Under the pieces are notes generated by a model. That model was given only the letters and a program-made list of their open reading frames with translations. It did no database searches and was not told where the DNA came from. A program made the position numbers and the translations under genes. Below are positions 25,212-28,463 of a stretch of DNA of 32,243 bases, piece by piece (positions within the stretch are counted from its first letter, which is position 1; every line of letters starts with the position of its first letter). Source of the DNA: an uncultured Woeseiaceae bacterium (GTDB lineage: Bacteria; Pseudomonadota; Gammaproteobacteria; Steroidobacterales; Woeseiaceae); contig CAMYLB010000059.1 of the NCBI GenBank assembly GCA_947259145.1, positions 1-32,243 on the forward strand, in the 5' to 3' direction.

Positions 25212-25985
25212 TTACTTGCCTTTGAAATTCGGCTCACGTTTTTCGAAGAACGCCGCAACGCCTTCGATATTGTCGTCACTGCCTGCCAATGCCTGCTGCC
25301 AGTCAGCTTCCAGGCTGAAGGTGCTCGCCCAATCATTGTCGATAGCGTGACGCATGGTTTTCTTGGTCGCCTCGAGCGACCGCGGCGCGCGTTTCGCAAG
25401 CGCCTGCGCCCATTCCAGCGCCACACTCTGCAAGTCCTCTGCGGGCACGGCCTTGTTCGCAAGGCCGAGTTCAACGCATCGATTCGCAGTAATGCGCTCC
25501 GATTCGACGCTGAGCTGGAAGGCACGGCGATAGCCGAGCTGCCGCACGAGCAGCCAGCTGAGTCCGCCATCCGGTACGAGCGAAATCGTCGTGAACGGTG
25601 ACAGCAGGAACGCGTTGTCGGCCATGACCAACAAATCGCAGTGCAGTGCCAGTGACATGCCGATGCCGGCCGCCGAGCCCGGAACAGCCGCTATGACAGG
25701 CTTCGACATCGTCGCGACTGCCGAGAACACGGGTCGATACTCGTAGTGCAACTTGCCGAATACGCTGCGCCCTTCGATTCCGGCCTTGAGATCTGCCCCG
25801 GCACTGAAACATCGCCCTTCGCCGGTCAGTACGACCACGCGGACATCGTCATCGGCGGCCGCACGTTCAAGCGCCAGCTGTGTTTGCAGGGACAATTCCG
25901 CCGTGAATGCGTTCATCGCATCGGGGCGATTCAATGTAATCACGGCAACGGCGCCCTGTTGTTTGTAGCTGACAATGTCAGTCAT
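25212..25985 (-). CDS. Enoyl-CoA hydratase/isomerase family protein
   Basis: VITLNRPDAMNAF, GEGRCFSAGADLK, VPGSAAGIGMSLALHCDLLV. Confidence 0.93.
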   Translation of the reverse strand: MTDIVSYKQQGAVAVITLNRPDAMNAFTAELSLQTQLALERAAADDDVRVVVLTGEGRCFSAGADLKAGIEGRSVFGKLHYEYRPVFSAVATMSKPVIAAVPGSAAGIGMSLALHCDLLVMADNAFLLSPFTTISLVPDGGLSWLLVRQLGYRRAFQLSVESERITANRCVELGLANKAVPAEDLQSVALEWAQALAKRAPRSLEATKKTMRHAIDNDWASTFSLEADWQQALAGSDDNIEGVAAFFEKREPNFKGK

Positions 25986-26282
25986 TAGGGGACCTCCGAT
26001 TGACTATTTCATGACTGCGCTGCGCGCCCAGTTGTGCCGAGACGCGACGCGGCTCGATGGTAATGGCCTTAGCCCTTGCCGAGAGGCGCAACAAAGTATC
26101 GGCACAACTGGGCCACAACCCGTTGACACAGATTGTTCTTCTTCCGGGCCGGGGTGGATCGTCCGAATAGCGACGTTGCGATGCCTCGACAGACCTATGG
26201 GTATGTTGTCGCCATCGCGCCTTTCTCTCCGGACGATCCACCACCGGCGCAGCCACGAAATAATCATTCGAAGGTCCCATAA
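25985..26282 (-). repeat. Large nested inverted-repeat element: outer 38-bp imperfect arms enclosing two long hairpins; candidate structured RNA or palindromic mobile element
   Basis: Outer arms 25985-26022 / 26245-26282 (31/38 identical as inverted repeat); inner perfect arms 26026-26040 / 26099-26113 (15 bp) and 26153-26165 / 26230-26242 (13 bp); further hairpin gcgatg/catcgc and cgaca/tgtcg inside the second. Confidence 0.9.
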
Positions 26283-26288
26283 GTCTCC

Positions 26289-28463
26289 TCAGGCGGCTGA
26301 ACGGGCTTCGCCCTTTTCGGCAAGCCCGTAGTAGGTTTCGCCGCTTTCAGCCATTGCGCGCAATCCGTCGGGAACTTCGAATCGCGCGCCGTAGGTTTTT
26401 GCAAGCCGGTCGGCGTCGGCAACAAACGCTTTTAAGCCAATCGTCTCAATGAATGACAAGGTGCCGCCCATATAGGGCGGGAAACCCCAGCCAAAAACAG
26501 ATCCTACGTCGGCATCAGCCGGATGCGTCAGCACGCCTTCCTCAAGACAACGCGCTGCATCTATGGCTTGCACATACAACAGGCGGGTTTTGACCTCTTC
26601 CGGTGAAGGTTGTTCACTGGATAGCGGGAAATGCTTGGTCAGCCCAGGCCACAGTCGCTTGCTGCCATCGTCGGAATATTCGTAGAAGCCGGCGCCAAAC
26701 CGCTTGCCGCGCCGCTCGAGATCGACCACCATTTTTTCCATCACGTCATCGGCGGGCGTCGCGACATAGTCGTCACCCAGGTCGGCCTTGGTTTGTTTTC
26801 CGATCTTGTAGGCCAGCTCCAGCGACACCTCATCCGTGACAGCCAGCGGACCGACCGGCATGCCGGCATGCTTCGCAACATTCTCGATCAGTGCCGGTTT
26901 AACGCCTTCGGCGAGCATCGCAATGCCTTCCCGCGTAAAGGTGCTGAACACGCGGCTCGTGTAGAAACCGCGGCTGTCATTGACAACAATCGGCGTCTTG
27001 CGAATCTGCTGGATGTAGTCCAGCGTGCGCGCGATCGCCTTGTCACTGGTCTTTTCGCCCACGATGACTTCCACGAGCGGCATTTTATCAACGGGCGAGA
27101 AGAAATGGATGCCGATAAAGCTCTCAGGACGCTTGGACGCCTCGGCAAGACCCGTAATCGGCAATGTCGACGTATTTGAACCGAAAATTGCGTCGCTACC
27201 AATCACGGCCTCGGTTTTCGCCGTCACATCCGCTTTTATACTGCGATCTTCGAAGACCGCTTCGATCACATATTCGCAGCCATCGAGATCCGCATAATCG
27301 TCGGTCGTATGTATCTGCTCGAGGATAGCCGCAGCAGCGTCGGCATCCATGCGGCGACGGTCGATCCGTTTTTGCAGCAATTTGCGCGAGTAGTCTTTGC
27401 CTTTCTCGGCGTCGTCTTTGCTGCGATCGAGCAATACCACCTGCATGCCGGCACGCGCCGAGACAAATGCGACCCCGGCGCCCATCATGCCGGCACCGAG
27501 TACGCCAAGTTTCGTGACCTTGCTCTTGTCGATACCCTGCGGACGACGCACGAGTTTATCCGCCGCCCCTTTGTTGACGAACAGGGTGCGAATCATGTTA
27601 CGAGCTTCGGCGCTAGTGAGGAGTTCTGCGAAGTACTTCGATTCTATCTGCAATGCCTGATCGATCGGCAGAACCGACCCTTCGTAAACCGCTGACATGA
27701 TTGCGATCGGCGCTGGATAATTATGATTGGTCGCTTTTTGCAGCAACGCGACGCCGAACATCTGCGTTTGAATGGCCTTGGGATTCATGAGGCCGGCGCC
27801 GCCGGGTACCTTGAATCCTTTCTTGTCCCAGGGTTGAACGGCTTCGCCCCCGTCGAGAATCCACTGCTTCGCGGCATCGACCTCCTGACCCGGTTCCACC
27901 AGTAGATCGACGACACCCAGCTCGGTCGCTTTCGCGGGTGACAAGTGCGTGCCTTGCAGCAACAAAGGCAGCGCCGCCTCGAGTCCAATCAAGCGCGGCA
28001 GGCGTTGCGTGCCTCCGGCGCCGGGCAGCAGCCCGACCTGCACCTCCGGCTGGCCCAGTTTTGCCTTCGGATTATCGGCGGCAACGCGGTAATGACACGC
28101 GAGGCACAGTTCGAGGCCACCGCCGAGCGCGGTGCCATTGATCGCGGCAACGACGGGCTTCCCACAGGTTTCTAGCTTGCGATAAAGCTGCTGCAGGCCG
28201 CTCCATTTGGCGAAGGCCACTTTCGGATCTGCTCCCGGATCGATTTCATCCACAATCTGCAGCAGGTCCGCGCCGGCAATGAAGGAGCTCTTGCCGGATG
28301 TAACGACGGCGCCCTTGATGTTCTCGTCGCCTGCAACCTGGTCGATTGCCTTGTCGAGCTCGGCGATGAACTCCGGTGATACGACGTTCATGGATCGGTC
28401 CTTGAGATCGATCGTAATCAGTGCGATGCCATTGCTGTCTGTTTTGATATCAAGTGTTTTCAT
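26289..28463 (-). CDS. FadB/FadJ-like fatty acid oxidation complex alpha subunit (enoyl-CoA hydratase / 3-hydroxyacyl-CoA dehydrogenase)
   Basis: GKSSFIAGADL, GTALGGGLELCLACHYRVA hydratase motifs; LGVLGAGMMGAGVAFVSARAG NAD-binding; IGIHFFSPVDKMPLVEVI. Confidence 0.95.
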   Translation of the reverse strand: MKTLDIKTDSNGIALITIDLKDRSMNVVSPEFIAELDKAIDQVAGDENIKGAVVTSGKSSFIAGADLLQIVDEIDPGADPKVAFAKWSGLQQLYRKLETCGKPVVAAINGTALGGGLELCLACHYRVAADNPKAKLGQPEVQVGLLPGAGGTQRLPRLIGLEAALPLLLQGTHLSPAKATELGVVDLLVEPGQEVDAAKQWILDGGEAVQPWDKKGFKVPGGAGLMNPKAIQTQMFGVALLQKATNHNYPAPIAIMSAVYEGSVLPIDQALQIESKYFAELLTSAEARNMIRTLFVNKGAADKLVRRPQGIDKSKVTKLGVLGAGMMGAGVAFVSARAGMQVVLLDRSKDDAEKGKDYSRKLLQKRIDRRRMDADAAAAILEQIHTTDDYADLDGCEYVIEAVFEDRSIKADVTAKTEAVIGSDAIFGSNTSTLPITGLAEASKRPESFIGIHFFSPVDKMPLVEVIVGEKTSDKAIARTLDYIQQIRKTPIVVNDSRGFYTSRVFSTFTREGIAMLAEGVKPALIENVAKHAGMPVGPLAVTDEVSLELAYKIGKQTKADLGDDYVATPADDVMEKMVVDLERRGKRFGAGFYEYSDDGSKRLWPGLTKHFPLSSEQPSPEEVKTRLLYVQAIDAARCLEEGVLTHPADADVGSVFGWGFPPYMGGTLSFIETIGLKAFVADADRLAKTYGARFEVPDGLRAMAESGETYYGLAEKGEARSAA

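Follow-up and report, generated by a model that had tools for sequence, protein, structure and literature searches.

A MITE with IS5-type ends in a Woeseiaceae genome and a hairpin family apparently constrained on one strand

Bacterial MITEs, such as ERIC, NEMIS/Correia, RUP, Nezha and the Coxiella elements QMITE1 and QMITE2 (PMC5896051; review PMC10969869), are short and non-coding, have terminal inverted repeats, are dispersed and often gene-adjacent, and give transcripts that are predicted to fold strongly (PMC5896051, PMC10969869). The element described here, from an uncultured Woeseiaceae bacterium, resembles them in these respects. Unlike in those MITEs, however, it is the interior and not the ends that is conserved between distant groups, as an inverted pair of homologous hairpins under strand-specific constraint. 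The direct repeats also differ, being 2-4 bp of variable sequence in QMITE1 (PMC5896051) and TA in the hairpin family. An IS5-family insertion sequence (NF033581) found in three genus-mates has ends that match the element's; unlike such insertion sequences, the element encodes no transposase. REP dimers and REPINs likewise consist of two inverted hairpins, sometimes within an outer palindrome, and REPs are 20-40 bp long, tagged by GTAG or CGTC and associated with RAYT transposases (PMC3733652, PMC3116915), whereas the hairpins studied here are ~100 nt long and have no such tag. We interpret the element as a MITE with IS5-type ends, belonging to a family whose homologous inward-reading stem-loops are under strand-specific constraint, as folded RNA or single-stranded DNA, and give this interpretation a probability of roughly 0.85.

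Architecture of the element in the fadB-ECH gap

The window is the whole stretch of DNA analysed, 32,243 nucleotides of contig CAMYLB010000059.1. The element and its surroundings are composed of the following features, with the evidence for each in brackets.

25212-25985, minus strand: enoyl-CoA hydratase (ECH) gene (Pfam)
25986..25987, no strand: TA, putative target-site duplicate beside the ECH start codon (sequence; TA duplication in family members)
25988..26279, no strand: whole MITE, 292 bp, quasi-palindromic (relatives' gap without the element; homologues elsewhere in genus-mates)
25988..26020, plus strand: terminal inverted repeat (outer arm), ECH side (pairs with 26247-26279; family consensus TAGGGAACCTCTGATYAATTATTTC; IS5-family ends in L247-L249)
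25993..25997, minus strand: GGAGG, Shine-Dalgarno-like, 7 nt upstream of the ECH start, within the MITE end (sequence)
26017..26120, plus strand: inner hairpin B, directed inward from the end next to ECH (63.8 bits with covariance model R1, E = 4.6e-15; fold z = -6.3)
26121..26146, no strand: linker separating hairpins B and A (lies between the two R1 model matches)
26147..26250, minus strand: inner hairpin A, directed inward from the end next to fadB (38.8 bits with covariance model R1, E = 3.1e-8; fold z = -6.3)
26247..26279, minus strand: terminal inverted repeat (outer arm), fadB side (pairs with 25988-26020; consensus TAGGGAACCTCTGATYAATTATTTC; IS5-family ends in L247-L249)
26280..26281, no strand: TA, putative target-site duplicate, fadB side (sequence; TA duplication in family members)
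26289-28463, minus strand: FadB-type gene (Pfam)

The earlier note had described nested inverted repeats exactly filling the gap between the two genes. The repeats are present: the two perfect stems are 15 bp (26026-26040/26099-26113) and 13 bp (26153-26165/26230-26242) long, and the outer arms pair along some 33-38 nt, with four G.U pairs on the minus strand. The gap is indeed filled, but the boundaries had to be corrected to 25988-26279 (292 bp), with TA on each side. Folded with RNAfold, the minus strand reached -169.7 kcal/mol; dinucleotide shuffles averaged -110.7 (sd 5.7), which gives z = -10.4, and 0 of 100 shuffles folded as well. The architecture is beyond chance, because the same layout recurs in other genomes and at other sites.

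Two open frames span the element, of 100 aa (25978-26280, minus strand) and 118 aa (25975-26331, plus strand). Neither has a Pfam match along its course through the element, and they are probably a by-product of the GC-rich palindrome. Simple scans found no promoter-like or terminator-like sites at the element. No Rfam family exceeded its gathering threshold in the window; the same search on two full family members gave nothing above threshold, and at 12 loci with family members it returned no family match, only an unrelated tRNA. The weak matches in these searches were far below the gathering scores.

The hairpin family and its strand-specific constraint

A pattern search in the genus revealed copies with different outer arms and the same layout. 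In the GTDB collection, the hairpin-tip pattern found at least 120 stretches, and carriers among the matches listed include Thiodiazotropha, Thioalkalivibrio, Thiohalobacter, Marinobacter, Microbulbifer, Woeseiaceae, Burkholderiales, Zetaproteobacteria and Malonomonas. Thiohalobacter thiocyanaticus and Marinobacter halodurans are examples of carriers in culture. Most complete elements are ~260-290 bp long with near-perfect ends of ~35 nt, arranged as TIR, TCAG, hairpin, about CCCTTCGGG, inverted homologous hairpin, CTGA and TIR. The covariance model matches 109 of 387 sampled gammaproteobacterial genomes (84 of 288 genera) and, in a phylum-wide draw, 70 of 399 genomes. Plasmids and E. coli genomes gave no family match, phages one short partial match and viral contigs one match. 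Based on crude ORF calls, 50 of 81 family sites lie between co-directional genes, 21 between convergent and 10 between divergent ones, and 43 of 92 gene stops are within 12 nt of an element; near-exact filling of an operon gap is thus common in the family. A suspected bias of element orientation relative to transcription was discarded, as a hand tally of scores gave 15:4 but the 50 co-directional sites gave 23:26.

Some smaller and composite forms were also observed. Eight loci (L104, L107, L108, L112, L115, L121, L123 and L126) carry TIR-only palindromes of 33 bp with type-2 ends, whose sequence fits deletion of the interior of a full element between TTGACGG direct repeats. Two type-2 elements (L036, L040) contain, nested within them, another palindromic repeat (about AAAAAATTGGGGTCGAACCGAAGTTTTT) that is unrelated, and similar repeats of the GGTCGAACC type flank transposase genes in L250 and L267.

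The covariance model R1 was built from 41 aligned divergent hairpins of distant family members, leaving the window out, and finds both window hairpins. The earlier note would have taken a lack of homologues with compensatory changes as a refutation, and such changes are there: in the alignment of the 41 hairpins, 26 of the 36 consensus pairs have double changes. Paired cells amount to 93.4%, compared with 68.1% in shuffled and 34-46% in slid alignments, and double-change cells number 392 against 115 when shuffled. The tip and internal-loop motifs AAGG...AATGGC...CCTTGYCAAG...AACGC are nearly invariant in the 41 hairpins, in part because the tip pattern was used to collect members. Looser members, with still other ends and terminal loops, keep the same AAGGCGC...GCAACGC frame, so the frame does not stem from the search pattern alone.

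A constraint acting on the hairpins purely as double-stranded palindromes should leave G.T and A.C mismatches in equal numbers on a given strand. We counted both by ungapped pairing in 82 distinct elements, using the outer arms as control. The left hairpin has 113 G.T and 25 A.C mismatches (binomial p about 1e-14, which ignores shared ancestry). For the right hairpin, on the forward strand of that hairpin, the counts are 102 and 22 (p about 2e-13, likewise ignoring shared ancestry). The outer arms have 41 and 39. An earlier count with a different alignment method gave 89:36. The excess in the hairpins and the parity in the arms suggest that the outer arms behave as DNA ends and that the hairpins are selected as folded single strands. 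At the family level, this strand-specific constraint on the hairpin sequences is well supported, the counts being taken without regard to shared ancestry. The earlier note had read the G-U wobbles of the outer stem as a sign of RNA; four such pairs do occur here, and the sign disappears across the 82 members. Its intuition of an RNA fold suits the two inner hairpins, with their strong strand-specific G.T preference, but not the outer stem.

The pattern of mismatches most likely reflects hairpins that take their form as folded RNA, in transcripts entering from either side. Alternatively, they could act as single-stranded or cruciform DNA, for instance as sites for a transposase or a host protein in transposition or replication. 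This is a serious possibility, though clearly the less probable one. The hairpins are symmetric, one immediately inside each end, the preferred strand has its 5' end at the end of the element, and DNA hairpins tolerate G.T too. Yet ends that lack a hairpin do occur in small derivatives, TIR-only or with one hairpin, although deletion could explain these, and the same hairpin frame is carried by ends of very different sequence.

It is unlikely that the hairpins are functionless and kept merely by mutational correction. Template switching is known to correct quasi-palindromes and would by itself yield apparent covariation, and palindrome deletion is evident in the family. Such correction, however, predicts no strand preference, with which the arms agree (41:39) and the hairpins do not (113:25 and 102:22), and it leaves the near-invariant tip and internal-loop motifs of the 41 aligned hairpins unexplained.

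Insertion, ends and target site

Of 73 genomes of the genus, 64 have a homologue of the ECH protein. Among the relatives that share the gene pair, the closest ones (G009, G104 and others) lack the element and have a gap of ~10-20 nt; in G009, whose ECH has 98% amino-acid identity, it reads TGA-GGAGACAGTT-ATG, and G104 is similar. The window element has TA on either flank, yet the duplication is imperfect when compared with the closest empty relative. The fadB-ECH gap of G023 (L044) contains TTAGGGGACCTTATATG, which resembles a remnant of a MITE end. That it is an excision footprint is unproven, since closer relatives show no trace.

BLASTN revealed homologues elsewhere in genus-mates, 73-82% identical along most of the element or a part of it; some are truncated or without one hairpin. 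Some match to the element occurs in 8 of the 100 genomes searched, the host itself included, and the covariance model detects several further copies in the host genome.

The empty sites in relatives decide against a cis-regulatory or intercistronic RNA belonging to the fadB-ECH operon, which the earlier note had considered. The element does lie exactly between two co-directional genes, its fold is very stable, and its end bears GGAGG ahead of the ECH start. But the gap is empty in close relatives, other copies adjoin unrelated genes, and Rfam has no match, making this reading very improbable; an ancestral element of the operon is refuted, and a later local effect could exist. The GGAGG (25997-25993, minus strand), inside the outer stem, replaces the GGAG of the empty site, and this MITE-derived motif may alter translation of ECH.

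The other suggestion of the earlier note, a MITE-like palindromic insertion, is borne out by the empty sites in relatives, the dispersed copies and an insertion sequence with matching ends. Three genus-mates (L247-L249) carry this 1.2-kb insertion sequence, whose ends, e.g. CTAG-GGAAGCTCTGATCAATT and (reverse strand, L247) CTAG-GGAACCTCTGATTTATTC, match the outer arms of the element. Its transposase belongs to the IS5 family (NF033581, E = 5.7e-106, above the cut-off; Pfam DDE_Tnp_1), and the window element is on this basis a MITE with IS5-type ends. Its identity as a MITE is well supported: it is 292 bp long and non-coding, with terminal inverted repeats of ~33 nt, an empty site in relatives and IS5-family ends. 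This transposase may mobilise the element in trans. The partner was seen in three other genomes of the genus; the incomplete host genome yielded none.

An autonomous partner was found for this one end type, and none for the ends of the other hairpin-family members. A candidate partner with type-2 ends, in L176, proved to be merely a MITE beside an aroC-like gene, and none was found within 2.0 of the 2.96 Mb of G237. Other insertion sequences of the genus (L255, L259, L261) have CTAG at both ends, e.g. CTAGCAGGCTGTTGAAAAAC, and CTAG-type ends are therefore common in the genus.

The target site was identified from a pair of filled and empty loci, L021 (G051) and L314 (G032), in which AAATAGCTG becomes AAATA-[GTACTCC...GGAGTAC]-TAGCTG, a duplication of TA. 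In the 2.0 Mb of G237, 18 copies have a median pairwise identity of 99.2%, and 15 of them are flanked by TA on both sides, with flanks that differ further out. The CTAG ends had suggested a four-base duplication, YTAR, but the empty-site alignment and this burst pointed to TA instead. In L021 the element went into the TA of a stop codon, TAG, which the duplication restores, as also in L176; insertion into TAG may thus be harmless at such sites.

That the element is instead of REP/REPIN type, with a RAYT (Y1) transposase moving it, is far-fetched: inverted hairpin dimers in a longer palindrome do resemble REP dimers within palindromes (PMC3733652), and 11 of 13 genus genomes tested have Y1_Tnp matches, but the hairpins exceed the REP size range, the 41-hairpin alignment has no GTAG or CGTC at the stem foot, no Y1_Tnp gene was seen flanked by the element's ends, and IS5-type ends with TA duplication fit a DDE transposase. 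As a separate observation, Y1_Tnp genes flanked by short repeated palindromes, resembling REP/RAYT pairs, occur in the genus (L268, L270, L272, L278).

Proposed role of the hairpins

In the mechanism that we propose for the MITE, the outer arms would work as DNA, being the sites for the transposase, and the hairpins would work as RNA folded within transcripts that read through the element. Since one hairpin is an inverted copy of the other, read-through from either side would yield a correctly oriented hairpin before the outer arms pair. The hairpins may lower the cost of insertion through transcript stability or polarity relief. More tentatively, there could be a class of selfish DNA across the Pseudomonadota with paired inward-facing RNA modules, in which either landing orientation would present a correctly oriented hairpin first in any read-through transcript. 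The hairpin would alter transcription or mRNA fate, e.g. by antitermination, and the element could be tolerated inside operons at little cost; we regard this wider proposal as possible and rather doubtful.

We found no earlier description of the hairpin family in the open-access papers searched, and one may exist elsewhere; sRNA-Xcc1 was considered as a candidate for such an earlier name. MITEs are usually viewed as empty shells defined by their ends. Here the ends vary, and a conserved interior, constrained on one strand, occurs in roughly one in four of the gammaproteobacterial genomes sampled. These features suggest a folded module, of RNA or DNA, that is selected within mobile elements and apparently undescribed. 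The covariance model would annotate many structured intergenic regions that might otherwise be mistaken for regulatory RNAs, and the family offers a system in which to test how transposons become less costly within operons.
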